From a virus, in the IMG/VR virus record IMGVR_UViG_3300000553_000224, positions 1-30,009 of that record: a stretch of DNA of 30,009 bases, one strand, 5' to 3'. Shown here one piece after another: positions 6,456-29,000 of the stretch (within the stretch, counting starts at the first letter, position 1; each line of letters starts with the position of its first letter). The notes under the pieces are model-generated. The model did not search any database and was not told where the DNA came from. It worked only from the letters and a program-made list of their open reading frames with translations. Position numbers and translations under genes: made by a program.

Positions 6456-7109
6456 ATGGCTCGCAACACTTATCTTAAGGAACATCTAAGCTTCACTCAG
6501 GCGGGCATTGAATTGCTCACTGAGGAAGCTGCCGATGGATCCGGCAAAACTCTTTACATGAAGGGTATTTGTATTGAGGGCGGAGTTCGCAATGCAAATG
6601 AACGTATCTATCCAGTACATGAAATTTCTAAAGCAGTAGATACTATCAATGAGCAAATTAAAACTGGACATTCAGTTTTGGGAGAAGTGGACCATCCGGA
6701 TGATTTAAAAATTAATTTAGATCGCGTAAGTCACATGATTTGCAACATGTGGATGGAAGGTCCTTGTGGTTACGGAAAATTAAAAGTATTACCAACACCA
6801 ATGGGAACATTAGTAAAAACAATGTTGGACAGTGGTGTTAAATTAGGTGTTAGTAGTCGTGGATCAGGAAATGTAAACGACCATAACGGACATGTCAGTG
6901 ACTTTGAAATTGTCACTGTGGATGTGGTTGCCCAGCCTTCTGCGCCCAATGCGTATCCAACAGCTATCTATGAAGGCCTCATTAACATGAAGCACGGTCA
7001 TAGAATCTTTGAGATGGCAAAAGAAGCAGGACAGGACAACAAAGTACAGAGATATTTGAAAAACGAAGTATTAAAGTTGATTAAAGATCTTAAGATTGAA
7101 GGAAAATAA
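6456..7109 (+). CDS. 21: Prohead core serine protease gp21
   Basis: 217 residues, matching the T4 gp21 prohead protease family (peptidase S77). It matures the prohead by cutting scaffold, core and capsid proteins after L/I-x-E motifs. Likely catalytic residues are His80 in GEVDHPDD, Ser133 or Ser134 in GVSSRGSG, and Asp156 in VTVDVVAQPSAPNAYP. The N-terminal MKGICIEGGVRNANERIYP segment is also typical. The start lies 9 bases after the upstream stop, and AAAAGG at the end of the preceding gene may act as a rather distant ribosome binding site. The scaffold gene starts immediately after its stop, so translational coupling is likely. Confidence 0.95.
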   Translation: MARNTYLKEHLSFTQAGIELLTEEAADGSGKTLYMKGICIEGGVRNANERIYPVHEISKAVDTINEQIKTGHSVLGEVDHPDDLKINLDRVSHMICNMWMEGPCGYGKLKVLPTPMGTLVKTMLDSGVKLGVSSRGSGNVNDHNGHVSDFEIVTVDVVAQPSAPNAYPTAIYEGLINMKHGHRIFEMAKEAGQDNKVQRYLKNEVLKLIKDLKIEGK

Positions 7110-8230: not shown

Positions 8231-9427
8231 ATGTCACAACAATTATTAGAAAGCCGCTGGGGCGAAACTAAAGATGCATTGCTAGAAGGCCTACAAGGCT
8301 CAAAGCGTTCATCCATGAGTGTAATCCTAGAAAACACCCGTAAGTACTTGAAAGAGAATGCTACATCGGGTTCCACAGCATCAGGAAACATTGCTACACT
8401 TAACCGTGTAATTCTGCCAGTGATTCGACGTGTAATGCCAACAGTTATCGCTAACGAGTTGGTAGGTGTACAACCAATGACAGGACCTGTAAGCCAGATC
8501 CATACATTGCGTGTACGTTATGCACAGTCACTCCAGGACAATAGTCTTGCTGCAACTTCTGTATCAGCTGGTCAAGAAGCCCTAAGCCCATTTACCATTG
8601 CTACAGCATACTCCACATTGCCATTTGATCAAAGTCAAGCTAACGGTTATACCGGTAACAACACAGCGACAATGGAAGGTACTGGCGGTAAGCAAATTTC
8701 CATCCAGATCTTGAAACAAGCTGTTGAAGCTAAGACACGCAAGTTACAAGCTCGTTGGACATTTGAATCTGCTCAAGACGCACAAGCTATGCATGGTATC
8801 GACGTAGAAGCTGAAATCATGGCTGCTCTCGCACAAGAGATCACAGCTGAGATCGATCAAGAAATTCTTTTAAGTCTTTCTTCTTTGGCTGCTACAGAGT
8901 ACACATACAACCAAGCTACAGTTTCAGGTACAGCTACATTCGTTGGTGACGAACATGCCGCATTGGCAGTGCTCATCAATCGTGTTGCTAACTTGATCGC
9001 TCAACGCACACGTCGTGGCGCTGGCAACTGGGCAGTGGTAAGTAGTGCTGCTTTAACAGTATTGCAATCTGCAACAACTTCAGCTTTTGCTCGTACAACA
9101 GAAGGAACTTTCGAAGCTCCAACAAACACCAAGTTTGTAGGTACTCTCAACGGTTCATTACGTGTATTCGTAAACAGCTATGCTCCAGATACACAATCAG
9201 TATTGGTTGGTTACAAAGGATCTTCAGAGGCTGATGCCGCTGCGTTCTATTGCCCATACATTCCGCTGATGAGTAGTGGAGTTGTGTTGGATCCAACAAG
9301 CTTCGAACCAGTCGTTAGCTTTATGACACGTTACGGATTCGTAGAATTAACAAATACTGCAAGTTCTTTTGGAAATGCAGCCGACTATGTGGGGGAGATA
9401 GCTGTCCAAAATCTGAGCTTTTCCTAA
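8231..9427 (+). CDS. 23: Major capsid protein gp23
   Basis: 398 residues, clearly T4 gp23 family: NIATLNRVILPVIRRVMPTV (about 53-72), ELVGVQPMTGPVSQIHTLRV (about 76-95), and a C-terminal MTRYGFVEL region. It is shorter than T4 gp23 (521), as marine relatives often are. The N-terminus holds L/I-x-E sites for gp21; cleavage after Glu42 (YLKE) or Glu34 (VILE) would remove a prepeptide, the first being more like known marine homologues. GGGAGA at 8220-8225 is a good ribosome binding site. A strong terminator follows 55 bases after the stop. Codon use is richer in C-ending codons than the neighbouring fibre genes, as expected for a highly expressed gene. Confidence 0.97.
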   Translation: MSQQLLESRWGETKDALLEGLQGSKRSSMSVILENTRKYLKENATSGSTASGNIATLNRVILPVIRRVMPTVIANELVGVQPMTGPVSQIHTLRVRYAQSLQDNSLAATSVSAGQEALSPFTIATAYSTLPFDQSQANGYTGNNTATMEGTGGKQISIQILKQAVEAKTRKLQARWTFESAQDAQAMHGIDVEAEIMAALAQEITAEIDQEILLSLSSLAATEYTYNQATVSGTATFVGDEHAALAVLINRVANLIAQRTRRGAGNWAVVSSAALTVLQSATTSAFARTTEGTFEAPTNTKFVGTLNGSLRVFVNSYAPDTQSVLVGYKGSSEADAAAFYCPYIPLMSSGVVLDPTSFEPVVSFMTRYGFVELTNTASSFGNAADYVGEIAVQNLSFS

Positions 9428-9481
9428 GAGAAAGACAAATTTTGTACTGCGTCTTTTCGACGTATTCAAAAAGCAACAAAC

Positions 9482-9507
9482 AAAAAGACACTTTCGGGTG
9501 TCTTTTT
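9482..9507 (+). terminator. Intrinsic terminator after gene 23
   Basis: A perfect 10-bp stem (AAAAAGACAC, 9482-9491, with its complement at 9498-9507) encloses a TTTCGG loop containing UUCG and is followed by a T run (9503-9508). It ends the head operon and separates it from the homing endonuclease. Confidence 0.92.
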
Positions 9508-9562
9508 TGTTGACTTTAAATTCATAATATGTTACATTAGTAGATGAAGTTGCGTTACAAAA

Positions 9563-9569
9563 CTAAATA
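9563..9569 (+). promoter_or_regulatory. T4-type late promoter box before the homing endonuclease
   Basis: CTAAATA, only 5 bases before the ATG at 9575. With T4 geometry the start codon would be the transcription start itself. No Shine-Dalgarno is present. Confidence 0.6.
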
Positions 9570-9574
9570 CTATT

Positions 9575-10339
9575 ATGAAACTAATAAATGAAATTCAATC
9601 ATACACTTATCTTATTAAATGTAAAGTAACCGGGCAAGTCTACTATGGTAGTAGAACCAAAAATGTTCGATTAAAAAGAACCCCACTTCAAGATTTAATG
9701 ATCTACTACACAACTAGTAGTAACGATGTTAACGATTTGATAAAACAATACGGTATAGAAGCATTTGATTGGGAAGTAAGACAAACATTCGATAATGTAG
9801 ACAAACCTGGTGCGTGGGAAACTAAAGTATTGCGTAGAATGAAAGTATTACAACGTAGGGATATTTGGTTAAATGGAAATATTGCTGGCAAAAAAGTACT
9901 AACCAAAAGCGGAGCAAAACGTATTAGCGAAACACACAAAGATAAACCTAAAACAGAAGAGCATAAACGCAAACTTAGCGAGTCTAATATAGGCAAAAAG
10001 AAAGGCGAGAGATCTAACGAGTATCGAGAAATTATGTCTAAGATTAAATCGGGAGCAGGTAATGCTATGTACGGAAAACCTTGTACTAAAGAAAGAGCAG
10101 CCAACATTAGTGCTGCTAAGAAAGGTAAGCCTGCTAAAAACAAAGGACATAAAGAAACTCGCCCAGAAGTATTAGAAAGAATTAAACAAGCCGCATTAGC
10201 TCGTAAACCACAAACAAAAGAACAGCGAGAAAAACAAGCACAAAAAACTCGTGGCCAAAAAAGAACACCCGAACAAAAAGAAAGAATACGTCAAGGAATA
10301 TTACGCAAACTAGCTGAAAAACAAAAGGAAACAATATGA
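9575..10339 (+). CDS. GIY-YIG homing endonuclease (Seg / I-TevI-like) with NUMOD3-like repeats
   Basis: 254 residues. The N-terminal nuclease domain has YTYLIK (about 10-15) and VYYGSR (about 22-27) as GIY and YIG motifs, with Arg27 and a probable catalytic Glu82 in GAWETKVL. The C-terminal two thirds is Lys-rich with DNA-binding NUMOD3-like motifs (KRISETHKDKPKTEEHKRKL; GNAMYGKPCTKERAANISAA). It is free-standing just after gene 23; in T4 the GIY-YIG gene segD also follows gene 23, so this is a conserved insertion hotspot. It would nick or cut alleles lacking it and spread by repair. It overlaps the next gene by ATGA at 10336-10339. The promoter box is directly upstream. Confidence 0.9.
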   Translation: MKLINEIQSYTYLIKCKVTGQVYYGSRTKNVRLKRTPLQDLMIYYTTSSNDVNDLIKQYGIEAFDWEVRQTFDNVDKPGAWETKVLRRMKVLQRRDIWLNGNIAGKKVLTKSGAKRISETHKDKPKTEEHKRKLSESNIGKKKGERSNEYREIMSKIKSGAGNAMYGKPCTKERAANISAAKKGKPAKNKGHKETRPEVLERIKQAALARKPQTKEQREKQAQKTRGQKRTPEQKERIRQGILRKLAEKQKETI

Positions 10340-10521
10340 ACTCAAGACAATACGAACGAATGATGAAAGAAGTATTTGCAAATGCCTGCGCCAATGCTGG
10401 TATTGACAAAGAAGATGTAGTGGGCGCAAATTTAGAAGCGCACCGCACTTATTACACTATCAAACTCAAAGACGGTACAGAAAAAATTATTGACAGCGGT
10501 CTTGAGTGGTGCCCGGACTAA
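10336..10521 (+). CDS. Small hypothetical protein overlapping the endonuclease gene
   Basis: 61 residues, starting inside the end of the homing endonuclease gene (ATGA overlap), so probably translated by coupling; AAAGGAA lies upstream at 10324-10330. The sequence has an N-terminal helix (SRQYERMMKEVFANACANAG) and a beta-like C-terminal half (YYTIKLKDGTEKIIDSG). I do not recognise a family. It could be cargo moving with the endonuclease. Confidence 0.6.
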   Translation: MNSRQYERMMKEVFANACANAGIDKEDVVGANLEAHRTYYTIKLKDGTEKIIDSGLEWCPD

Positions 10522-10577
10522 AGTAAAATAACGTCCGCTGGCACGGTATAAATTGTAAGTCCTACTCTTGACCGCTA

Positions 10578-10584
10578 CTAAATA
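10578..10584 (+). promoter_or_regulatory. T4-type late promoter box within a short palindrome
   Basis: CTAAATA lies inside CTACT-AAAT-AGTAG (10575-10588). Transcription would start near 10590, before GGAG at 10602-10605 and the ATG at 10612. It probably drives the small gene at 10612 and the large fibre gene coupled to it. Confidence 0.6.
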
Positions 10585-10611
10585 GTAGATAATATATCAA
10601 CGGAGTAGATT

Positions 10612-10776
10612 ATGACAACATGTGCAGTGATCAACGCAGACGGTCTAGTGGTAAACCTCATCGTAGCCGAACCTACAGATACGCCACCCGAAGGCTGTAG
10701 CCTAGTACTAATACCATTCTGTGACATTGGATATACCTGGGATGGCCAGCAGTTTAACCCACCGGTAAGCGACTAA
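10612..10776 (+). CDS. Small tail-fibre-associated protein (54 residues)
   Basis: 54 residues, starting MTTCAVINADGLVVNLIVAE and ending WDGQQFNPPVSD. This pattern (short protein with an xAVINxxGxVVNxIVA start and a [GW]xTWDG end) is common beside phage fibre genes; the precise role is not known to me. GGAG at 10602-10605 gives good ribosome binding spacing. Its TAA overlaps the ATG of the next gene (TAATG at 10774-10778), so translation of the two is probably coupled. Confidence 0.72.
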   Translation: MTTCAVINADGLVVNLIVAEPTDTPPEGCSLVLIPFCDIGYTWDGQQFNPPVSD

Positions 10777-12840
10777 TGGCAACGTACTATTGGGTTGGTG
10801 GTACAGGGACCTGGAACACATCTTCCACAACTAACTGGGCAACAAGTTCAAGTGGTACTGGTGGTGCTGGTGTTCCTACTTCTACAGATAGTGTAATTAT
10901 TGATACAAGCTCTGGTACAGGAACAATTACTTGTACTTCTGCTTCTGCTACCTGTCAAAATTTAACTGTTACCGCAACACAAGCTATTACCTTAGCTGGT
11001 ACTTTATCTTTACTTAAAGGTAGTCTAAGTTATCCATCTAGCGGTTCTTTTGCATCAACGGCTTCATTAACATTTACAGCTACAACAACTGGATTTACTG
11101 TAAATACTGGCTCTATTACTTTAGGTGGAACAATTACATTTAATGGTGTTGGTGGAGGTTGGACTTTAGCTGGTAATTTAAATGGAACAAGTATTTCTAG
11201 CGCATTAGTTTTAACTGCAGGTTCTTTAAATACTGCAAACTATACAATCAATTATGGCTCAATAAATATATCTGGTTCAACAACTCGTTCCTTAACTTTA
11301 GGAACATCTACTTTAAATCTCAGTCAAAACAGCACACCTTGGACTGCAACCACTACAACAGGTTTGACTTTTAGTGGTGCAAGTTCAATAATTAACCTCA
11401 CTACTGCTAATGCTGGTTTAGGATTTGCTCCTGGTGGATTATCTTACGGAACAGTAACTTTCCCCACAAATACAGCATCATCAGGCATTGGAAGCACCAT
11501 TAGTGGCGCAGCAACTTTTGTCAATTTAACTATTCCTGGAAATAGCACAACCTCAGGTGGTAATGAAGGTATTTATTTATACAATATATCAAACTCAATT
11601 ACTGTAACAGGAACATTTACATCAGGTACAGCAACATCCCCAACCGCAAGGACTGGAATAATAAGCGGTACATTTGGAACTCAAGTAACCATTACAGCAG
11701 CTAATGTAGTTTTAAATAACACTGATTTTAGGGACATTGTAGGCGCTGGCGCAGCCACTTGGTCTGGCACAAGCATTGGTGATGCTAAAGGAAATTCAGG
11801 CATTACTTTTACAACACCCAAAACTGTTTATTGGAATCTTACTGGCACACAAACTTTTACTTCTGCTGGGTGGGCAACAACTCCAACTGGTACTCCATCA
11901 GTAAACAATTTTCCAATACCACAAGATACTGCAACTTTTACTAATTCTGGCGCAGCAACAAACATAACTCAAACTTTTGGTTATTGGTTTTGTAGCGGCA
12001 TTGATGCGTCTGCTAGAACAACAGCAATAACATTAACAATTAACGTATCCATTCCGTATTTTGGTGACATATTATTAAACCCATCAATTACAAGTCCCTG
12101 GGGTGGACAACTTCAAATACAAGGTAGAAATACGCAAACTATTTCTGCCTCTGGTGCAGGTTTTTCAAACGCGCTTCTCATTAGTTCCCCTGGTGGTACT
12201 GTTAATCTTGGAGCAAATTTTTCTTCTACTTCCACTTTCAATTTAAGCAATGGAACTTTTAACACACAGAATAATAATTTAACTTGCACTACATTTACCT
12301 CCTATAGTGCCACAGGAACAGCCGCCATAACTCTTGGTACTTCTACAGTTACATTAACTGGCACAGGAACACCTTGGAATTTAAGTACACCTACAGGCCT
12401 TACATTTAGCGGCGCTTCTTCTACTATTGTATATGCCGTTACAACATCTTCAAATATAATTTTTGAAGGTGGCGGATTAACATACGGAACATTTAACATA
12501 ACAGGAAGTAGTGCTGGTGCAGCAACAACTATTTCTGGTTCAAATACTTTTGGAACTTTTACCAGTAATAGAACTTTTTTGCATACTATTAAATTTACAG
12601 CTAGCACAACGCAAACTATTGGCACATGGTCTGTAACTGGTAATTCAAGCGGTATAGTTTATTTAGTTTCTACTACTGGTGGTACAACAGCAACATTATC
12701 AATTACCAATCAAACATCAGGAATTGATTATTTAAACATTCAAGATATAACTGCAAATCTTGCGCCTGTAACTTTTTATGCTGGAACTCATACTCAACTA
12801 CAGTCAAATGTGCTTGGTGTTGCGGCAACAACTCCTATTA
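10776..12840 (+). repeat. Internal duplication of about 1 kb in the fibre gene
   Basis: Unit 1 (about 10776-11815) and unit 2 (about 11820-12840) code for related beta-rich modules, each beginning with a YYW or YW...GT...W segment and carrying a TPW..GLTFSGASS block. Similarity is evident at the protein level and weak at the DNA level, so the duplication is old. Confidence 0.5.
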
Positions 12841-13805
12841 CTAAGCAATACATTTATGTATTAACAAGCGGGACTTCTTGGACTGTTCCTGCAGGTTGGA
12901 CTAACTCTAGTAACGAAATTCATCTATTTGGCGGTGGCGGAGGTGGTGGTGGAGGAACCTACGGTTCCCCTAACGGGGTTGGTGGTGGCGGAGGTGGTGG
13001 AGGCGGATATACCAAAGCAACCAATGTAACTTTATCAGGCACAATTTCTTATGCTATTGGTGCTGGTGGCACTGCTGGAGCAAATTTTGGTGGCACTGGC
13101 GGTACAGGCGGAGCAACCACTTTTAATTCTGGCGTTTATACAACTACTGGTGGAATTGGTGGATCAACCACGGCAACTCCAACATCCGTTGGTGGTGCTG
13201 GCGGCACAGGAGCAACAGCAAATGGTGGTATTGGGGGGCAAGGCTCTTTAACAACAGTTTCTGCTGCTGCTGCAAATGGCGGCGGTGGCGGCGGAGGCGC
13301 TGGTGGGCCATTAGGAAACGGAGCTGCTGGTGGAAATGCTTTTGCTGGCGGTGCAACAGTAGCTAATACTGCTGGCGGTGGGGGTGGCGGTAATGGGGGT
13401 GGTTCTACTGGCGGTAATGGGTCATCTGGAGTAGGGGGAACAGGCGGTAATAATAATGCTGGTGTAGGTGGTGGAGCGTCAAATAATGTAGGATTTAGCG
13501 GTGGTGGCGGGGGCGGTGGAACTAATGCAGCAAATAATATTAATGGTTCTTGCGGTGTAGATATTGCAAATGCAGGGATGGGAGGTGGAAGCGGTGGCGG
13601 TGGAGAGGCAACAGGAGCTACTGTAACTGCTTCTACTGGATTTTTTGGAGGAGCTGGAAGTGGTGGTGGTTCAGCTGTAAATGGAGCACCAAGACCTGGT
13701 TCTGCTGGCGCACAAGGCGCAATTATTATTGTTTACAAAGCCTCCCCACCTGTTGTCATAGGAGCAGGATTTACAATAGGCTCTGGATTTGTCCTTGGAT
13801 TCTAA
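10776..13805 (+). CDS. Large fibre/adhesin protein with duplicated beta modules and Gly-rich C-terminal domain
   Basis: 1,009 residues, rich in Thr, Ser, Gly and Ala with almost no charged residues. The N-terminal unit starts YYWVGGTGTWNTSSTTNWAT. A diverged copy begins near residue 350 (YWNLTGTQTFTSAGWATTP), and paired segments TPW...GLTFSGASS recur at about 187-210 and 530-552, so an approximately 345-residue unit is duplicated. Residues about 695-1000 form a Gly-rich domain: a WTVPAGW entry strand, IHLFGGGGGGGGG, many poly-Gly turns, and the closing strand GAQGAIIIVYKA, as in phage Gly-rich adhesin domains. Such domains serve receptor binding in T-even adhesins. A host-recognition role is inferred. 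Its stop codon lies within a CTAAATA (13802-13808). Confidence 0.75.
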   Translation: MATYYWVGGTGTWNTSSTTNWATSSSGTGGAGVPTSTDSVIIDTSSGTGTITCTSASATCQNLTVTATQAITLAGTLSLLKGSLSYPSSGSFASTASLTFTATTTGFTVNTGSITLGGTITFNGVGGGWTLAGNLNGTSISSALVLTAGSLNTANYTINYGSINISGSTTRSLTLGTSTLNLSQNSTPWTATTTTGLTFSGASSIINLTTANAGLGFAPGGLSYGTVTFPTNTASSGIGSTISGAATFVNLTIPGNSTTSGGNEGIYLYNISNSITVTGTFTSGTATSPTARTGIISGTFGTQVTITAANVVLNNTDFRDIVGAGAATWSGTSIGDAKGNSGITFTTPKTVYWNLTGTQTFTSAGWATTPTGTPSVNNFPIPQDTATFTNSGAATNITQTFGYWFCSGIDASARTTAITLTINVSIPYFGDILLNPSITSPWGGQLQIQGRNTQTISASGAGFSNALLISSPGGTVNLGANFSSTSTFNLSNGTFNTQNNNLTCTTFTSYSATGTAAITLGTSTVTLTGTGTPWNLSTPTGLTFSGASSTIVYAVTTSSNIIFEGGGLTYGTFNITGSSAGAATTISGSNTFGTFTSNRTFLHTIKFTASTTQTIGTWSVTGNSSGIVYLVSTTGGTTATLSITNQTSGIDYLNIQDITANLAPVTFYAGTHTQLQSNVLGVAATTPITKQYIYVLTSGTSWTVPAGWTNSSNEIHLFGGGGGGGGGTYGSPNGVGGGGGGGGGYTKATNVTLSGTISYAIGAGGTAGANFGGTGGTGGATTFNSGVYTTTGGIGGSTTATPTSVGGAGGTGATANGGIGGQGSLTTVSAAAANGGGGGGGAGGPLGNGAAGGNAFAGGATVANTAGGGGGGNGGGSTGGNGSSGVGGTGGNNNAGVGGGASNNVGFSGGGGGGGTNAANNINGSCGVDIANAGMGGGSGGGGEATGATVTASTGFFGGAGSGGGSAVNGAPRPGSAGAQGAIIIVYKASPPVVIGAGFTIGSGFVLGF

Positions 13806-13868
13806 ATAGATGATCTCAACAAAACTCAGTGCCAATATAACCCTATAATTTTTTAATACAACTGTTTT

Positions 13869-14447
13869 TCAAGGATTTGTTGGCGCAGGATTGCCAGCTG
13901 TGGACCAATTCTTCAGAGCATTACGTCGATTGGCAGCACCAGCTTGGCCTTGAGTTATTCGGCCACCACTGCGAACACTTTGTGCATAAGGTATGTTATC
14001 GTAAGCAGGGTTGTTGGGATCAGCGTCAATTTTTTTCCTAAATTCTGCTGCCGCTGCATAAGGCAAAGCAAATAAACCTGCGATACCAGCTGCTCCACCC
14101 AGCTCTGGCAGCACTCTACTCAGTATTGAATTGGCAGTTTCGGCATTTCTCAGAATGTCATTTACAGCCCCGGCTTCTGCTCCAGCTTGTATATCAGTGC
14201 CCAAGGAGTTGCGCAATCCGTCAATGGCCACTGAGCTGAGTTTGCCAGTGGCTAGATTTTGTATGTATGAGTATGCTGATGGAGCATGAGCTTTAATGCG
14301 CTGAACTATGGGATTTGACATTATGCCCTTTAAGTAGTCGATAGCTGGTTCAGCTTTTGCGATGGCATCTACCGCAGGTGCTGGTAATTTCTGCATTATA
14401 GCGGCAGCATCTTCGTTTAATGGGCGTGAAAATTCTTGGTATCTCAT
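13869..14447 (-). CDS. Alanine-rich protein of unknown function, minus strand
   Basis: 192 residues from the ATG at 14447 (MRYQEFSRPLNEDAAAIMQK). The frame is open further upstream, but a TATAAATA box on the minus strand (14455-14462) would start transcription about 2 bases before this ATG, so the longer form would not be made from it. The protein is Ala-rich and helical, with a hydrophobic stretch LGGAAGIAGLFALPYAAAAEF at about residues 116-136 that could contact membrane or pack in a helix bundle. The C-terminus is basic and Asn/Pro-rich. I do not recognise the family. It lies against the direction of its neighbours, like an inserted cargo gene. Confidence 0.65.
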   Translation of the reverse strand: MRYQEFSRPLNEDAAAIMQKLPAPAVDAIAKAEPAIDYLKGIMSNPIVQRIKAHAPSAYSYIQNLATGKLSSVAIDGLRNSLGTDIQAGAEAGAVNDILRNAETANSILSRVLPELGGAAGIAGLFALPYAAAAEFRKKIDADPNNPAYDNIPYAQSVRSGGRITQGQAGAANRRNALKNWSTAGNPAPTNP

Positions 14448-14454
14448 AGTATAA

Positions 14455-14462
14455 TATTTATA
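14455..14462 (-). promoter_or_regulatory. Minus-strand late promoter, exact TATAAATA
   Basis: On the minus strand this is the exact T4 late consensus TATAAATA, followed by 7 bases and then the ATG at 14447. No Shine-Dalgarno lies between, so the transcript would be leaderless. Confidence 0.65.
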
Positions 14463-14506
14463 CATTCTTTGGTTATTGTATGTTAAGTTAGATGCGCTAA
14501 AAACCG

Positions 14507-14513
14507 CTAAATA
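14507..14513 (+). promoter_or_regulatory. Late promoter for the LamG-like gene
   Basis: CTAAATA, with transcription expected near 14519, followed by GAGGA at 14531-14535 and the ATG at 14542. It is divergent from the minus-strand promoter 45 bases away. Confidence 0.6.
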
Positions 14514-14541
14514 CAAGCATAATATTATTTGAGGACACGCA

Positions 14542-15273
14542 ATGTCATTATCAATAGGAGCAGGGTGGACAATAGGAGCAGGGTGGGCTATAACTACCTC
14601 CTCTACATTGGCAGTTTATAATTTTGAAGGTACTGGATATACTAGTAGTACCGGAACGTTGGGCCAGCTTTCTTTATCTGGTACGGTGACAACTAGTACT
14701 GCACAAGCCAAAAGCGGAACACAAAGTGCAGTCTACGGAACATCTAACTCTAATACATACTGGATTACCTTTCCTCAGACACTTACCACCTATGCTTACA
14801 ACGGTGGGTTTACTATTGAAGGATTTATATATCCCACCGCCACGCCCGCAGCCTATGCCAGTTGGGTTGGAGTTAGTGACAGTGCCAATGATTATATTAC
14901 AACAACTGCTTACCGCGATGTACAAGGATTCCCAGTTGATAGTAGAAGTAGTAGTGGGGGTGGTCAGGTTATCTCTATGACATTAAATACATGGAACCAC
15001 GTGTTTATGGCATGGTACAACGGATATTGTTATTACGGTAGTAATGGAGCTTATTATTATGCCCCATCTGGTGGTCCTTATTATCGAGATCTAGCGTTAT
15101 TTCCCAATATAAATTTAGCAACAGTAGGCTATGTTCCGTATTGTATTTATACAGGATCTTGGCCCACTACTTATGTAGATCAAATGCGTGCCAGTAGTGC
15201 TTGTCTTTATGTGGCCAATCCCACTGGTGGCGGAAACGGAACGTATACAGTACCCACTACTCCACTAACTTAA
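14542..15273 (+). CDS. LamG / concanavalin-like lectin fibre protein
   Basis: 243 residues. The N-terminus repeats GAGWTIGAGW. The body fits a LamG-like jelly-roll lectin: AVYNFEGTGYTS, then a WITFPQTLTTYAYNGGFTIE strand pair and GFIYP, LNTWNHVFMAWYNG at about residues 149-162 (typical of LamG 'W.H' strands), and VDQMRASSACLY near the C-terminus. Such domains bind glycans, so this is likely a small receptor-binding or fibre-tip protein. Its GAGWTIG start resembles the GAGFTIGSGF end of the 1,009-residue fibre gene upstream. GAGGA is the ribosome binding site. Confidence 0.72.
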   Translation: MSLSIGAGWTIGAGWAITTSSTLAVYNFEGTGYTSSTGTLGQLSLSGTVTTSTAQAKSGTQSAVYGTSNSNTYWITFPQTLTTYAYNGGFTIEGFIYPTATPAAYASWVGVSDSANDYITTTAYRDVQGFPVDSRSSSGGGQVISMTLNTWNHVFMAWYNGYCYYGSNGAYYYAPSGGPYYRDLALFPNINLATVGYVPYCIYTGSWPTTYVDQMRASSACLYVANPTGGGNGTYTVPTTPLT

Positions 15274-15381
15274 ATTTTTAAGGCAAATTGTACTTTGCTA
15301 AGTAATGTTGACTCCTGACTTAGTGGAGTATAAAACATTAAGCTGGTGGGTCGGACGTCTCTGTAGTGCAAAAGGAAAAAA
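15274..15381 (+). promoter_or_regulatory. pcyX upstream region: sigma70-like promoter and competing hairpins
   Basis: No TAAATA late box is present. Instead TTGACT (15308-15313) and TATAAA (15329-15334) each match the sigma70 consensus at 5 of 6 bases, with a short spacer of 15 bases. Two hairpins could form: CTAAGT (15298-15303) with ACTTAG (15318-15323), and ACTCC (15311-15315) with GGAGT (15325-15329). AAAGGAA at 15371-15377 is the ribosome binding site for 15382. The promoter call is tentative because AT-rich DNA gives many such matches. Confidence 0.4.
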
Positions 15382-16056
15382 ATGAGTAAAGTTTGGGATA
15401 GAATATTGGCATTAGCCAGTACAGTAGAAAGTCGTTTTGCAGCAACGGGAGAATTAATTCCTGAACAAGCTGCAATTGATGGATACGATTGGTATAATAA
15501 AATTTATACTGGAAAAACATATCGTCGAGCTCACGTTGAGATTGTGGACAAGCGTGAAGATTTTAAAATATTAATATTACATTGTACTATATTCCCACAC
15601 TATAATGATCCCTCACCAATTTGGGGTTTTGATGCTGTATGTGGAGCCAATAAAATTACTGGTGCTTTTCATGATGTTAGTTCAGGTGGCGTTCCCAATC
15701 ATTTTATGGTAGAATGGTTTGCTGAACAAAGTCGGGCGTTAACTTGGAACAAAAAACGTGAATTGCCTGAATGGGCCGCGGAAATATTTTCACCCTATAT
15801 CATAGCCGCGGGCAATGTATCGGAAGATGCTGAGTTAGACATGCTGACAACTTTGGCATTAACTAGTTTAGATTATTATCTTGAAAATGTGGGCAAAACA
15901 GCACAAAATGAAGTTGATTACTACCCTGTACAACTCAAATACAATCAAAACAACAAACTAAATCCACATGTAAAACGCTCAATGATCAGTATGGGAGTGC
16001 CTGAACCAGTTATTACTAAGTTTATTGACGAAGTGTTATATCCCGAAGCCAGATAA
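15382..16056 (+). CDS. pcyX: Ferredoxin-dependent bilin reductase, PcyX/PebS-like
   Basis: 224 residues, matching the HY2/FDBR family (PcyA, PebS, PcyX), which uses reduced ferredoxin to reduce biliverdin IXalpha to open-chain bilins. Diagnostic core: PSPIWGFDAVCGANKITGAF (about 77-96) followed by HDVSSGG, then LPEWAAEIFSP (about 128-138). Asp84 and His67 are 17 residues apart, exactly the spacing of catalytic Asp105 and His88 in PcyA. Family knowledge: PcyX, known from uncultured oceanic phages, makes phycoerythrobilin. PebS from cyanophages is an alternative label; length and motif wording favour PcyX, which I infer rather than prove. No heme oxygenase, the usual source of biliverdin, is in the window. 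It lies among fibre genes and may have its own sigma70-like promoter. Confidence 0.85.
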   Translation: MSKVWDRILALASTVESRFAATGELIPEQAAIDGYDWYNKIYTGKTYRRAHVEIVDKREDFKILILHCTIFPHYNDPSPIWGFDAVCGANKITGAFHDVSSGGVPNHFMVEWFAEQSRALTWNKKRELPEWAAEIFSPYIIAAGNVSEDAELDMLTTLALTSLDYYLENVGKTAQNEVDYYPVQLKYNQNNKLNPHVKRSMISMGVPEPVITKFIDEVLYPEAR

Positions 16057-16068
16057 TTCAAAAAACAA

Positions 16069-16075
16069 ATAAATA
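16069..16075 (+). promoter_or_regulatory. Late promoter before the gene at 16101
   Basis: ATAAATA, transcription expected near 16081, followed by GGAG at 16091-16094 and the ATG at 16101. Confidence 0.55.
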
Positions 16076-16100
16076 GTTTTATATTATTTAGGAGTTGTAG

Positions 16101-17150
16101 ATGGCAAGTCCACCCCCACCATATGCTAATATAACCGGCATTAGTCGCTCGGTTATGAAAGACAATGCTCAAGAAAGCCTTGTCAACTATGACGGCCATG
16201 CTCGTCCTGGTGAATTAGTATTAAATCTTGAAACAGATCCTCCCGCACTTTATGTGGGTAATAATCTTGGGCAATTAACACTAGTTTCTACAGGCAGTGG
16301 TGGCGCCAGTAATAAAATTTACAATGGCACAAGTTCGGCCAATATTGACACTGCCGATGGTAATTTAATAATCAATATTAACAGTAACAGTTGGACTTTT
16401 GGCACAGATGGTGAATTGTATACTCCACAAGGCGGCCGTTTGGGCGTTGCTGGCAAGGGTTGGACAGGACTAGATGGTGGTAATGGCAATCCAGTTAGTG
16501 TAGTCAGTTATTATGCCAACGGATTCTATGCTGGTTGTTTTAGTGCATATTCTGATGGCAATGTAAGCATCAGCACTTATACCGGCTCTAATAACTATTC
16601 GTGGAATTTTGATAATACTGGCGTGCTATCATTACCAGTTGTTGCCACAGGAGCCCAAGGTATAGTAGCAACAGGCAATGCTTACCCAACATTATTGGCC
16701 TATGGCAGCGGTGGACAATTTGGTATTCACGGTGGTCCAGAATTAGACTGGATGGATGCAGACGATCCTGCCAACACATTTTACGATGGTAACACCGTTC
16801 GCAATACATTATATCTAAACGGTACTGGATTGTATGTTGGGTTGAATGAAAACGGAAATGTCAATCAGTTTCAAGGCAATTTAACTTTAAGCAGCACCAA
16901 CGGAGATTTGACTGTTCCTGGAAATATTATAACTAATGGGGCAAGCGGTAATATTACAGGTGCCAATGTTATTACTGCCAATGTATTTTCATCAGCGGGA
17001 AATACAACTGTTGGAAATTTATTAACATTTGCTAATCTAGCTGTTAGCGGTGGAAATCCGTTAACTGCTACAGACACTACGATTGCGTTTAAAATTCCAG
17101 TTACAATTAACGGCAATGTATACTACCTTTCGTTAACTGCCGCTCAATAA
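16101..17150 (+). CDS. Tail fibre / virion structural protein
   Basis: 349 residues. The N-terminal part ANITGISRSVMKDNAQESLV leads into ARPGELVLNLETDPPALYVG (about 34-53), a segment common near the N-terminus of fibre proteins in marine T4-like phages. The middle is Gly/Asn/Tyr-rich and beta-like. The C-terminal 100 residues contain TGN/NIT repeats (PGNIITNGASGNITGANVIT) similar to the repeat units of the giant fibre at 23033. It ends 2 bases before the end of the convergent minus-strand gene. I infer a fibre subunit that attaches by its N-terminus. Confidence 0.7.
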   Translation: MASPPPPYANITGISRSVMKDNAQESLVNYDGHARPGELVLNLETDPPALYVGNNLGQLTLVSTGSGGASNKIYNGTSSANIDTADGNLIININSNSWTFGTDGELYTPQGGRLGVAGKGWTGLDGGNGNPVSVVSYYANGFYAGCFSAYSDGNVSISTYTGSNNYSWNFDNTGVLSLPVVATGAQGIVATGNAYPTLLAYGSGGQFGIHGGPELDWMDADDPANTFYDGNTVRNTLYLNGTGLYVGLNENGNVNQFQGNLTLSSTNGDLTVPGNIITNGASGNITGANVITANVFSSAGNTTVGNLLTFANLAVSGGNPLTATDTTIAFKIPVTINGNVYYLSLTAAQ

Positions 17151-17152
17151 AA

Positions 17153-18307
17153 TTAAATTTTAAATAATTTTAAATTGTTGTGTATGCGTTCAATGGGATC
17201 ATCCCAGTTACCTGTTGTAGGTTGACGGAATATACGACAACTAGCATACCAGGGACTGTCTTCTCTTTCAAGTAACCAGCGCCAATCTTGTCCGTATTTG
17301 TTCAGCGGCAACCAAAACGGTCTGCCTAACGCTCCAGCTAAGTGCCCAACAGCAGTATCCACAGCAATAACCACATCAAGATGATGTATTAGACCAGCGG
17401 TATCATCCCAGTTTGCTATAGAACCTGGGTAAACAGCAACACCCGCGGCAATTAGTTGTGCTTCTTCTTCTGGTGAACAGTCAGCTTGTAAATTAATCCA
17501 TTCATATTCGGGATTACGTTTAATTAATTCAAACATTTTTTCAAATGGCATTGCCTTATGTTGATTAATCCAGCTATCTCTACGACCAGACCAGCAAAAT
17601 CCCACACGCAATCTCTTTTTTAATCCTAATGTTTTGTGCCATTTTTGTTGCGATTCCTTTGAAGCTGTCAAATATTGTAATTTGTGCTGTAAATTACTGT
17701 ATGTTATCTTTAAAAATCCTGGGATACTCATAATAGGAGTCCAGTAATCAAACTCAGGTAACAAATCTTCGGGACCTATGATAGTAACTGTCGGCGCCAT
17801 AAATGAATTTTGTAACAACGGTTTTAAATTGTTATCTACGGCAATGTAAATTTTAGCTCCCAGTCCGGCTAGCTCTTCGGCAAATCGACAAAATTGTATA
17901 TTATCACCGTGCCCTTGCTCGCCGGTTATCATTATAGATTTACCTTTGAGATCTTGCCCTTCCCAACGCGGTTGGGGTAGTTTGGGAAGTTTACCGTCTA
18001 AGTGTTCAAAACGCCAGCGGCGCTCATATTGAGCCCATCCACGTTCTAAATCCCCGGCAATTAAGTAAGCCACTGCTAAATTAAACTGGGCAGTAGTGTC
18101 ATTTTCGTTGATAGCAATAGCATTTAATAAAAACCCTATTGCTTGTTTTGGAAATCCCATTTCTCTAACAACATTACCGTAATTATTATAAGCGGCGCCA
18201 GAGTAAGGATCTTGAATAAATGCTTGGGCATAGCAAGCAAGTGCTCGTTCGGGTTCTACTGTGGATCTAAAATGGTTGCCTTGCGTGATTAATTCGTCTA
18301 TGGTCAT
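17153..18307 (-). CDS. TPR protein with glycosyltransferase-9-like domain
   Basis: 384 residues. Residues about 1-100 contain tetratricopeptide repeats (ALACYAQAFIQDPYSGAAYN; AIGFLLNAIAINENDTTAQF). WAQYERRWRFEHLDG leads into a Rossmann-type half resembling heptosyltransferase/GT9-like proteins: GEQGHGDNIQFCRFAEELA (about 129-147), YWTPIMSIPG (188-197), VGFCWSGRR (235-243), and DVVIAVDTAVGHLAGALGRP (311-330) with Asp317 and His322. Bacterial proteins of this layout are common in glycan modification. The acceptor here is unknown; it could be a virion protein, host LPS, or host surface. It lies opposite its neighbours with its stop 2 bases from that of the fibre gene, suggesting acquired cargo. 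A GTAAATA box sits 6 bases before the ATG. Confidence 0.78.
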   Translation of the reverse strand: MTIDELITQGNHFRSTVEPERALACYAQAFIQDPYSGAAYNNYGNVVREMGFPKQAIGFLLNAIAINENDTTAQFNLAVAYLIAGDLERGWAQYERRWRFEHLDGKLPKLPQPRWEGQDLKGKSIMITGEQGHGDNIQFCRFAEELAGLGAKIYIAVDNNLKPLLQNSFMAPTVTIIGPEDLLPEFDYWTPIMSIPGFLKITYSNLQHKLQYLTASKESQQKWHKTLGLKKRLRVGFCWSGRRDSWINQHKAMPFEKMFELIKRNPEYEWINLQADCSPEEEAQLIAAGVAVYPGSIANWDDTAGLIHHLDVVIAVDTAVGHLAGALGRPFWLPLNKYGQDWRWLLEREDSPWYASCRIFRQPTTGNWDDPIERIHNNLKLFKI

Positions 18308-23032: not shown

Positions 23033-26000
23033 ATGTCTGTAAATAAACCAAAACTTCTTAGTGGTCGTGTACCAGTTGTTGACTATGGCAATCTCACCGC
23101 TGATCGATATCAATTTTTAGGTTTAGGACAAGCCGAACCAAATCTTGGACCCGGAAACGCTAACAGCGTTTTAACTCTTTCAACTGATAATACTAGAGTT
23201 TGGGCCAACGCTTTATCATTAACAGCTATTTCTGTAACTGGAAATATATCAGCAACAGGAAATATAACAGCCAATTATTACTTTGGTAATGGATCTTTTT
23301 TAACTGGTGTACAAGCAACCAATGTTAATGCTAATGCGTTAATTGGAAATACTTTATCTGGAAACGTACTTTATAGTAGTTTAACTAGTTTGGGTATTTT
23401 ATCAAATTTATCAGTTAACGGTAATATATCTATTAATGCTGTTGGTAATATTTTACTTCAAGGTCTTGTAAGTGCCACCGGAAATGTGTATGGATCTAAT
23501 TTAACTATTACTACTAATATCAGCGCCGGGGGCAACATATTTTCAGGCGCCAATATTTCAGTTGTAGGTAATATTAGAGCTAATAATATTTCAACTAGTA
23601 ATATTATAAGCGCCGCCGGAAATATTTTTGGTGGTGGTATACGTTCTACTTCTAGCCCAACTGCTCCTGTCAATCCTTCTGTTGGTGATTTTTGGTATAA
23701 CACTGACACTAATGTGCAATATAGATTTACTTTTGACGGAACTTCTTACTACTGGGTAGATGATTACGGTGCAACATTAGGGGCCAACGGTAGTTTTACC
23801 AGTATTATTAATGGTAATTCTAATGTTTCTGTATTTAACAACAGTAACATAGTAGTTGGAGTTGCCGGGGTAGGCAACATTGTAACATGGGCAACTACTG
23901 GCGAATATGTTAATGGCGTAATAAGCGCCACAGGTAATATTTACACAGCTGGCCAAATATCAACCGTTGGTAATATTACAGTTGGCCCTACCGGATTTTT
24001 TGTAGGCAATTTAATTGGCAATATTACTGGTAATTTGGCAGTACCAGGTGCTAACACTGATATATTATACAATAATCAAGGCAATGTAGGAGCAAGTACA
24101 GCGTTTACATTTGATTCTGCGTCAAATATTTTAGCAATCACTGGTAATGTTATAAGTGAAAATTTATCAGTATCAGGAAATACTACATTAGGAAATTTTA
24201 CATTTGCCAATTCAAATATTAGCACAAATAGTACTACTGATATTATTATCAAATCTGCTGACAATAAAAATACTTTAATTGTTAGCGGCGGTGCTGATGC
24301 GTATACTGCACTAGCGTGGATAGATAGTGGCAATTTAGCTAACGCCAATGGTAGTCAAAATACCAATTACATTTATGTAGATGTCGATGGTGCTTTTTTA
24401 CAAACATTCGATCCTGTATCCCAACAATCATATCAGTTACACCTTGATCCTAATGGAAATTTAAGTGCTCCTAGTAATGTTAGTGCTGTTGGTAATATTA
24501 TAGGTGAAAATTTATATACAATAGGCGAAGTATCAGCTACTGCTAATATTACTACTAACAATTATTTTATTGGTAATGGAGCTTTTTTAACAGGAGTAGA
24601 AGCTACCAATGCCAATGCCAATGCGTTAATTGGCAATACTTTATCCGGCAATGTACTTTATAGTAGTCTAATATCAGTTGGTACACTATCTAACTTATCA
24701 GTTAGCGGTAACATTAATACTGACGGTAATTTAAGTGCCGTTGGCAATATTTTCAGTGGAAACATATTAACTACTGGTTTATTATCTGCTTCCGGCAACA
24801 TAACTGGTGGAAATTTATTAACTATAGGACTAATTAGTTCGACTGGTGATCTCACTACAGCAAATATAAGTGCTGGCGGAAACGTATTAGCTTCAGGATT
24901 GATATCTGTTGCTGGTAATTTGACTAGCGGTAATATATTAACAACAGGCGTAATTTCGGCTACATCTAGCATTACTAGTTCTGCTAATGTTAGTGCTGGT
25001 AATATTTTAACAACTGGTTATGTTAGTGCTTCGGGAAATGTTAAAGGCGGTAATTTATTAACTACTGGATTGATTAGTGCTCAAGGAAATGCCTTTTTTG
25101 GTAATGTATCACTACTCAATTTAATATCAGCCGCCGGTAATATTATTTCTAATGCTAACATTACAGGTGGAAACATATTAACTACTGGTGTAATTTCGGC
25201 CACTGCCAATATTACTTCAAATAATTATTTTATTGGTAACGGATACTATTTGACGGGTGTAATTGCTGTTAATGTGCCCGCCAATGCTTTAGTTGGTAAT
25301 ACTTTATCTAGTAACGTACTTTACAGCAGTTTAACATCAGTTGGCGTATTGACTAATTTATCAGTATCGGGAAATACTACAAGTGGCAATTTATTAATTG
25401 GTGGGTTAATATCTGCTACATCAAATATTACATCTGCGGCTAATATTACAGCTTCTAATTTATTAACTAGTGGATTAGTAAGTGCTACCGCTAATATTAT
25501 AGGTGGTAATGTTATTACTGCTGGACAAATAAGTGCTAGTGGCAACTTAAATGGTGGTGGTCTTTCTGTTAATGGCAATGCTGTTATTGTTGGAAATCTC
25601 AATGTCGAAGGTAACGTAACATTTATTGGTAGTAATGTTATTACTACTAACGATTTGTACATTGAGTTAGCAAATAATCAGTCAACATATGCCAATATTA
25701 ACAATGCTGGATTAGCGGTAGGCCCAAATAGTTCACCATTAACTTATTGGCAATACAATACTGGTGCCAACGCTTGGACAACTAATGTGGCAATTAGTGC
25801 TACAAGTAATATCATTGGTGGCAATGTATTAACTAACGGATTAATTAGCTCAACTGGTAATTTAATCAGTGGCAATGTGTTAACTAACGGATTAATTAGC
25901 TCAACTGGTAACGTAACTGGTGACAATGTGTTAACTAACGGATTAATTAGCTCAACTGGAAATGTTACAGCTGGCAACATATTAACTAGCGGAATAGTTA

Positions 26001-29000
26001 GTTCAACTGGAAATGTTTTTGCAAGCAACGGTAACTTTACTGGAAATCTTTTACCAACAGCTAATGTTACATATAGTTTAGGAAATAATTCTTTACGCTG
26101 GTCAAATTTATGGTTATCTAATTCTACAATTTACATTGGCAATGTTATTGTTGGGGCAACGGCTACTACATTAACAGTCAACGGGGCTAATGTAGTAACT
26201 TCAGATGCTAATGGAAATATTAGTACTATTGGCAATATAACTGGCGGCAATTTATTAACTAGTGGATTAATTTCAGCAACAAGCAATATTATAGGTGGCA
26301 ATATACAAACAGCTGGCAATATATCTGCTACTGGTAATATTAATATTGCTCCTGGCAGTTATTTTGTTGGAAATGTATACGGTAATCTTACTGGAAATAT
26401 TACTGTACCAGGCTCAAATACACAAGTTATATACAACAACAATGGTAATGCAGGAGCCAGTACTGGCTTTACATTTAATCAAGCATCTAATACAGTAACA
26501 GTTTCTGGAAATATAAACGGCGCCAATGTATTAACTAGTGGCATAATTAGTTCAACTGGTAATGTCACAAGTGGTAATGTATTAACCGCTGGTATAGTTA
26601 GTTCTACCGGCAACGCTATACACGGAAATGTATTAACTGCTGGATTGATATCAGCTACTTCAACTATTACATCCGCGGCAAATATTACAGGTGCCAACAT
26701 ACTAACAGGCGGCCTAGTAAGTGCCACTGGTAATGTAACTGGAAATTATATAATTGGTAATGGAAGTCAATTAACATCAATTACAGGTGGTAATGTAACT
26801 GGTAACGTCAATTCTGCTGTTACTGCCGGTACTGTTACTACTAATGCTCAACCAAATATTACTAGCGTTGGCACATTAACCTCAGTTACTTCTTCTGGGT
26901 TGATATCAACTACAGGTAATGTACAGAGTGCCAATGTATTTGCCACAGCAAATATTTCAGCTACTGGTAACGTAACTGGAAATTACCATATTGGTAATGG
27001 AAGCCAATTATCATCAATTACAGGTGGTAATGTAACTGGTCAAGTTGGCAATGCGTTGATAGCCGGCGCAGTTTATACAAATGCTCAACCAAATATCACC
27101 TCAGTTGGTACACTAACAAGTGTTACTTCTTCTGGGTTGATATCAACCACAGGTAATGTACAAGGAGCTAACATATTTGCTACTGCTAATATTAGTGCTA
27201 CTGGTAATGTAACTGGAAATTATATAATTGGTAACGGATCTACATTATCATCAATTACAGGCGGTAATGTAACTGGTCAAGTTGGCAATGCTTTAATAAG
27301 TGGTACAGTTTACACTAATGCTCAACCAAATATTACATCAGTTGGTACATTAACATCTATTACTTCTTCTGGATTAATTTCAACTACAGGTAATGTACAA
27401 GGCGCTAACGTATTTGCCACAGCAAATATTTCTGCTACTGCCAATGTAATTGGTGGTAATTTATTAACTGCTGGGCAAATATCCTCCACTGGAAACATTA
27501 CTGTTAGCCCAACAGGTTTCTTTGTAGGTAATATTATTGGTAACGTTACTGGCAATTTGGCAGTGCCTGGGGCCAATACTCAAATATTATATAACAATCA
27601 AGGCAATGTAGGTGCCAGTGCCGGCTTTACATTCAATGCCGCAACTAATGCTATGGTTGTTACTGGTAATACTACTTCAGGTAACATATTAACTGCCGGA
27701 TTGATATCAGCAACCGGTAATGTAACCGGTAATTATATAATTGGTAACGGAAGCCAATTATCATCAATTACAGGTGGTAATGTAACTGGTCAAGTTGGCA
27801 ATGCGTTGATAGCCGGCACAGTTTATACAAATGCTCAACCAAATATTACAAGCGTTGGCACATTAACCTCAGTTACTTCTTCTGGGTTGATATCAACTAC
27901 AGGTAATGTACAGAGTGCCAATGTATTTGCTACTGCTAATATTAGTGCTACTGGTAATGTAACTGGAAATTATATAATTGGTAATGGATCTACATTATCA
28001 TCAATTACAGGTGGTAATGTAACTGGTCAAGTTGGCAATGCTTTAATAAGTGGTACTGTTTATACTAACGCTCAACCAAATATTACAAGCGTCGGTACAT
28101 TAACATCATTAACTGTAACTGGCAATACTACAAGCGGCAATTTATTAACTGCTGGATTAATATCAGCTACTTCAACTATTACATCTGCGGCTAATATTAC
28201 AGGCGGCAATGTATTAACCGCTGGATTAATTAGCTCGACTGGAAATGCTACAGCTGGCAACATATTAACTAGTGGTTTAATTTCAGCAACAAGTACTATA
28301 ACAAGTGCCGCAAATATTATAGCGGGAAATATTATTACTGCTGGGCAAGTAAGTGCGACTGGCAATTTAAATGGTGGCGCACTTTCTGTTAGTGGCAACG
28401 CTGTTATTGTTGGTAATTTAAACGTTCAAGGTAATGTGACATTTATTGGTAGTAACGTAATTACTACCAATGACTTGTATATTCAACTTGCTAATAACCA
28501 GTCAACATACGCCAATATTAATAATGCCGGCTTAGCTGTTGGCCCTGCCGGAACCCCATTGACATATTGGCAGTATCAAAACGCATCAAATGCTTGGACT
28601 ACCAACGTATCAATCAGTGCTACTGCCAACGTAATTGGTGGTAATTTATTAACTGCTGGGCAAATATCTTCCACTGGAAACGTTACAGTCAGCCCAACAG
28701 GATTCTTTGTAGGTAATGTCATAGGTAACATTACTGGTAATTTGGCAGTGCCCGGAGCTAACACTCAAATATTATATAACAATCAAGGCAATGTAGGTGC
28801 CAGTGCCGGCTTTACATTCAATGCCGCAACTAATGCTATGGTTGTTACTGGTAACGTAACAGGTGCTAATATATTAACTGCTGGGTTTGTAAGTGCTAGT
28901 GGCAATGTAACTGGTAATTATATAATTGGTAATGGATCTACATTATCATCAATTACAGGTGGCAATGTAACTGGTCAAGTTGGCAATGCCTTAATAAGTG

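Follow-up and report, generated by a model that had tools for sequence, protein, structure and literature searches.

The window analysed here is the whole of a 30,009-nt stretch, positions 1 to 30,009 of the IMG/VR virus record IMGVR_UViG_3300000553_000224. It contains a gene of the ferredoxin-dependent bilin reductase (FDBR) family, located between two fibre-like genes of a phage with T4-type gp20, gp21 and gp23. The features of the locus are as follows.

3112-4950, + strand: portal protein gp20 (profile match)
6456-7109, + strand: prohead protease gp21 (profile match)
8231-9427, + strand: major capsid protein gp23 (profile match)
9428-17152, no strand: hypervariable fibre/cargo island, from gp23 to the glycosyltransferase gene
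14542-15273, + strand: fibre-like protein directly upstream of the FDBR gene, in the place that haem oxygenase takes in relatives, without similarity to haem oxygenase
15382-16056, + strand: FDBR gene of the AX clade with a PcyA-type active site, 224 aa (ORF, profile, structure matches, alignment and tree)
15538-15540, + strand: codon of Glu53, at the position of PcyA Glu76 and PcyX Asp55 (alignment, numbering from 2D1E and 5OWG)
15574-15576, + strand: codon of Ile65, at the position of PcyA Ile86, which is Met in all sampled PcyX-side sequences (alignment)
15580-15582, + strand: codon of His67, PcyA His88 (alignment)
15631-15633, + strand: codon of Asp84, PcyA Asp105 (alignment)
16101-17150, + strand: fibre-like protein directly downstream of the FDBR gene
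17153-18307, - strand: TPR/glycosyltransferase-9-like gene, right-hand boundary of the island (76% identity in the relative L006)

The reading frame at 15382-16056 starts with ATG, preceded by a Shine-Dalgarno-like AAGGA, and runs for 224 aa without an internal stop. Its product scored 39.9 bits with the PF05996 profile (cut-off 31) and also matched phrog_7278. By sequence, the closest solved relative was PcyX (5OWG, residues 33-221, E 1.1e-40) and the cyanobacterial PcyA structures ranked behind it (E about 1e-7). Among isolated phages, the best match was the FDBR of Pelagibacter phage Mosig with 35% identity, followed by cyanophage PcyA with 24-30%. An AlphaFold model built on 54 sequences from the window and related loci (mean pLDDT 92.6, pTM 0.91) has the α/β/α sandwich of the family. 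Its best fold match was the PcyA-biliverdin complex 2D1E (Z 25.5, rmsd 2.4 Å over 217 residues), and it superposed on PcyX 5OWG with Z 22.3 and rmsd 1.6 Å over 174 residues. The original prediction had assigned the gene to this family, proposing a PF05996 search as a check and saying that it would fall if the protein lay outside the family or lacked the biliverdin-binding Asp and His in a model. Since the profile match, the match to 5OWG and the superposition on PcyA agree, the assignment is confirmed, and both residues are present in the model.

Residue numbering was anchored on the alignments with 5OWG and 2D1E, in which Asp55/His69/Asp86 of PcyX and Glu76/His88/Asp105 of PcyA occupy the same columns as Glu53/His67/Asp84 of the window FDBR. 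The catalytic trio of PcyA is hence present, and the His67/Asp84 pair, already singled out from its PcyA-like spacing of 17 residues, aligns with PcyA His88 and Asp105. Ile86 of the PcyA pocket is present as Ile65. High conservation among PcyA enzymes has been described for Ile86, Glu76, His88 and Asp105 (PMC9800206), and Glu76 is reported to be PcyA-specific, required for 18-vinyl reduction and missing from PcyX (PMC10151467). The Glu76/Asp55 position is thus the one reported to distinguish the two activities. The catalytic Asp55 of PcyX is absent, as Glu fills that column in the window FDBR and in all its clade mates.

When 170 sequences were aligned, the Asp105 column was kept in all of them and the His88 column in all but PebS. 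The diagnostic column is Glu in the window, in 46 distinct phage loci and in the PcyA references, whereas it is Asp in all remaining sequences, including 5OWG and Mosig, and a gap in PebS. At the Ile86 column of the non-redundant set, sequences of the Glu group have Ile or Val, whereas 45 of 45 Asp sequences have Met. Comparing the window FDBR with known enzymes, PcyX (5OWG, GOS EBK42635) and the Mosig FDBR share its fold, the His/Asp pair and the AX branch but carry Asp55 and, at the Ile86 position, Met in place of Glu53 and Ile65. PcyA (2D1E; P-RSM4, P-TIM40) shares all four pocket residues, while its Tyr238, the partner of Glu76, is Phe214 in the window FDBR as on the PcyX side; an NPH motif is likewise shared with the PcyX side. 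PebS (P-SSM2), PebA and PebB have the FDBR fold and the Asp105-type aspartate in common with it, although PebS has Asn at His88 and their clade lies far from that of the window.

For the tree, relatives were gathered from IMG/VR by two scans, the alignment scan contributing the best 80 of 552 matches; three further FDBR contigs came from bacterial genome records (L168-L170), and PcyA, PebS, PebA, PebB and PcyX served as references. The phage Glu sequences came out as a single group (support 98/91) whose sister is formed by the Asp sequences; the window FDBR paired with that of L002 (86% identity). The group persisted with an SH-aLRT of 93 when the diagnostic column with its neighbours and the far outgroups were left out, and on the tree made without the diagnostic columns, a single change explains the residue at that position. 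The gene thus lies outside the PcyX clade of 5OWG and Mosig, in its sister clade, and with about 21-30% identity it is also separate from cyanobacterial and cyanophage PcyA. Because the bootstrap was not fully settled, long reference branches were joined and the cyanobacterial PcyA outgroup is distant, the split within the phages is more certain than the position with respect to cyanobacterial PcyA. The tree that had been proposed as a check therefore upholds the AX branch (PcyA/PcyX) and not the PcyX side, and the label "PcyX-like" has to be given up, considering Glu53 and Ile65 against the Asp and Met of the PcyX side and the separate, well-supported clade.

The most unusual feature of the locus is the lack of an adjacent haem oxygenase, which the original prediction had missed. 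Its authors had suggested a search for a haem oxygenase and a ferredoxin, and neither was found in the 30-kb record: tblastn with haem oxygenase gave only chance matches (E 2.7 or worse), and a Fer2 ferredoxin gene was found neither in the window nor in 31 relatives. Of the 152 testable FDBR relatives, 151 have a haem oxygenase upstream of the FDBR and on its strand; these 151 distinct loci correspond to 44 Glu-side entries, one contig being counted twice, and 108 on the Asp side, and a Pfam check recovered the haem oxygenase in 43 of 46 records. The two genes abut or overlap in nearly all cases, and are spaced by 0.6-1.5 kb in six Asp-side loci. The one true lone FDBR is that of L092, with no haem oxygenase in its 35.8-kb record; in all other loci without the partner, the contig breaks off at the FDBR, and these were excluded as untestable. 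Upstream coupling, usual for PcyX if not strictly defining, and present in Mosig with haem oxygenase directly upstream, is thus missing from the window. As the window covers 30 kb of a genome of perhaps ~300 kb, "orphan" here means that the partner is not adjacent, rather than absent.

That the two genes are so tightly coupled in almost every relative suggests that their enzymes normally serve to draw haem towards a bilin as end product, perhaps also freeing iron. In the Glu-clade records of L113, L115, L116 and L123, a 5-ALA synthase gene is encoded a few kb from haem oxygenase and FDBR. The haem oxygenase matches in the records of L111, L113, L115 and L116 (G071, G073, G075 and G076) are each reported with one in-frame TAA, and three of these four records also carry the 5-ALA synthase.

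The gene sits in an island whose content differs between close relatives. L006 and L007, the nearest by gp23 (95-96% identity), keep both flanks of the island and have different cargo with no FDBR: one carries a LamG-like protein together with a giant fibre, whereas the other has genes resembling those of a 2OG-oxygenase, an ATP-grasp protein and a methyltransferase, these names being read from sequence. The FDBR gene is thus sporadic cargo of a hypervariable island. The gp23 and fibre surroundings described in the original prediction are borne out, as the window has gp20, gp21 and gp23, with fibre-like genes on either side of the FDBR gene. Its late promoters are not, since the window holds 4 copies of the motif TATAAATA against 4.4 expected by chance, none of them just upstream of the FDBR gene on its strand. 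Base composition gives no sign of recent arrival, because the GC3 of the FDBR gene (0.26) falls within the range of its neighbours (0.19-0.34). A perfect 11-nt inverted repeat precedes the gene (15258-15268, TACTCCACTAA, and 15320-15330, TTAGTGGAGTA, with a 51-nt spacer); its fold is modestly better than that of shuffled sequences (z -2.0), and its 10-nt core was not found in L002-L004, L006 or L007. At the far end of the window, a giant open frame of more than 2300 aa with TGN/ISATGN-type repeats (23033-30007) runs off the record.

To place the phage, we compared its gp23 with those of isolates. The nearest are jumbo phages of proteobacteria with 62-66% identity, among them Vibrio phage 2.275.O (349 kb), Sinorhizobium phage Phosso (469 kb), PA5oct-like Pseudomonas phages (about 285 kb) and 121Q-like phages (about 350 kb). 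Considering this proximity, the window appears to be part of a jumbo phage genome with a proteobacterial host, and a light-harvesting role in a cyanobacterial host, one of the uses first envisaged, is unlikely. In 47 whole records with gp23 of 78-96% identity (up to 303 kb), neither FDBR nor haem oxygenase was found; the FDBR contigs of L002 and L004 were added as controls, and only these two matched. An FDBR, of the Asp type and accompanied by a nearby haem oxygenase, does occur in two more distant records whose gp23 shares about 75% identity, L148 (280 kb) and the L169 contig (335 kb). This FDBR lies about 170-190 kb from gp23, so the window gene differs from theirs in both place and partner status. 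T4-type gp23 is missing from 16 Glu-side records (4-208 kb, including L002-L004), all of which are fragments, and this suggests that the FDBR gene moves between unlike phages.

Taking the locus as a whole, we regard it as probable that the gene encodes a functional PCB:ferredoxin oxidoreductase of the phage AX lineage, carried as cargo by a large T4-like phage that probably infects a proteobacterium. That the product is phycocyanobilin (PCB) rather than phycoerythrobilin (PEB) is predicted with good confidence, based on Glu53, Ile65 and the separate clade. The closest precedent is the FDBR of CB_2, a complete 527-kb freshwater phage (PMC7674155, PMC11480375). This enzyme, vPcyA/X, groups between PcyA and PcyX, lacks Asp55 and was demonstrated to make PCB (Wegner et al. 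2024, PMC11480375), which argues for PCB over PEB in the window as well; it presumably belongs to the same Glu clade. CB_2 carries a broken cassette with 5-ALA synthase (PMC11480375), a layout also seen in several of the Glu-clade relatives collected here, and keeps a haem oxygenase beside the FDBR, whereas the window has none. It is unlikely that the window FDBR is instead a PEB synthase of the PcyX type, converting biliverdin to 15,16-dihydrobiliverdin and then to PEB. PcyX is its best match by sequence among solved structures, the NPH motif and Phe214 are shared with the PcyX side and the two clades are sisters, but the catalytic Asp is Glu in the window and all clade mates, the Met of the PcyX side is replaced by Ile as in PcyA, and the CB_2 enzyme yields PCB without Asp55. 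Very unlikely is a cyanophage gene serving phycobilisome assembly during infection. The cyanophages P-RSM4, P-TIM40 and P-SSM4 do carry pcyA without an adjacent haem oxygenase, yet their PcyA forms a separate group at only 24-30% identity, and the gp23 of the window is nearest to Vibrio, Sinorhizobium and Pseudomonas phages, not to cyanophages.

For a PCB-forming enzyme, biliverdin IXα would be bound in the FDBR pocket, with Asp84, His67 and Glu53 as putative proton donors and four electrons supplied by host ferredoxin, the likely donor because no Fer2 gene was seen in the window or the 31 relatives. The 18-vinyl group would be reduced first in a Glu-dependent step and the A-ring side next, yielding PCB. 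Since no haem oxygenase is adjacent, biliverdin would have to be supplied either by a haem oxygenase encoded outside the sequenced stretch of the phage genome or by the host. The first of these sources, a broken cassette in which the haem oxygenase is merely displaced and the full haem-to-bilin pathway is kept, has about an even chance; it is compatible with the PCB reading and would settle where the biliverdin comes from. The adjacent partner in 151 of 152 testable relatives, the existence of broken cassettes with displaced alaS (PMC11480375) and the 30-kb span of the record favour it, while no haem oxygenase was found in the 47 records of gp23 relatives, the longest of which reaches 303 kb, and L092 likewise has an FDBR without one in 35.8 kb. 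Alternatively, in a phage without any haem oxygenase an orphan PcyA could work on host biliverdin, for example by turning the biliverdin chromophore of a host bacteriophytochrome system into PCB and so altering host light signalling during infection, which seems rather improbable. It is also quite unlikely that the gene is a stray, non-functional passenger of the fibre island heading for decay. The hypervariable island, the absence of an FDBR from the same place in near relatives and the missing partner would fit such a passenger, but the ORF is full-length with all catalytic residues retained and AAGGA before its ATG. Against the L002 gene, dN/dS is about 0.07, indicating purifying selection, although a recent loss of function would stay hidden, since this value is an average of both lineages and dS (1.37) is near saturation. 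For the PCB-forming enzyme, the most likely benefit may be that biliverdin is drawn off while the infected cell breaks down haem, PCB being the end product.

Published work already covers FDBRs of phages, a PcyA of phage origin that groups between PcyA and PcyX, and the occurrence of such enzymes in a large freshwater phage, and it calls enigmatic why phages of heterotrophs carry haem-to-bilin genes (PMC11480375). A literature search turned up no publication describing jumbo-phage PCB genes by that name. The view that such genes have little genomic context is outdated, given the Mosig isolate, the 527-kb CB_2 and IMG/VR records of up to 280 kb. What is new here is a further member of the clade, without an adjacent haem oxygenase and placed in a fibre island, together with a Glu/Asp split that is clean, as judged by alignment, over some 160 phage sequences. 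This split would predict which phage enzymes make PCB and which make PEB, and an FDBR apart from haem oxygenase allows the value of the reductase to be considered separately from haem cleavage and iron release.

We also considered a bacterial origin of the gene. The only three matches in the genome_contigs set were L168, L169 and L170, all of which resemble phage contigs binned with MAGs, and the alphaproteobacterial FDBRs among 385 genomes (L253, L256) are remote and on very long branches, so no bacterial donor was found. The MAGs of the three contigs are labelled Halobacteroidaceae, Neomarinimicrobiota and Rickettsiales; their FDBR contigs look like misbinned phage and carry an Hsp20-ClpS-haem oxygenase-FDBR set, and the 335-kb contig of L169 also bears T4-type gp23. 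Hsp20 and ClpS genes recur beside haem oxygenase and FDBR (1109-3256 in L002, 3090-5131 in L168), possibly a conserved neighbourhood, since the contigs belong to phages that are only distantly related. In L004, the gene that follows the FDBR directly (10701-12554) reads from its sequence as a UvsW-like helicase, apparently split over two ORFs with an intein-like stretch.
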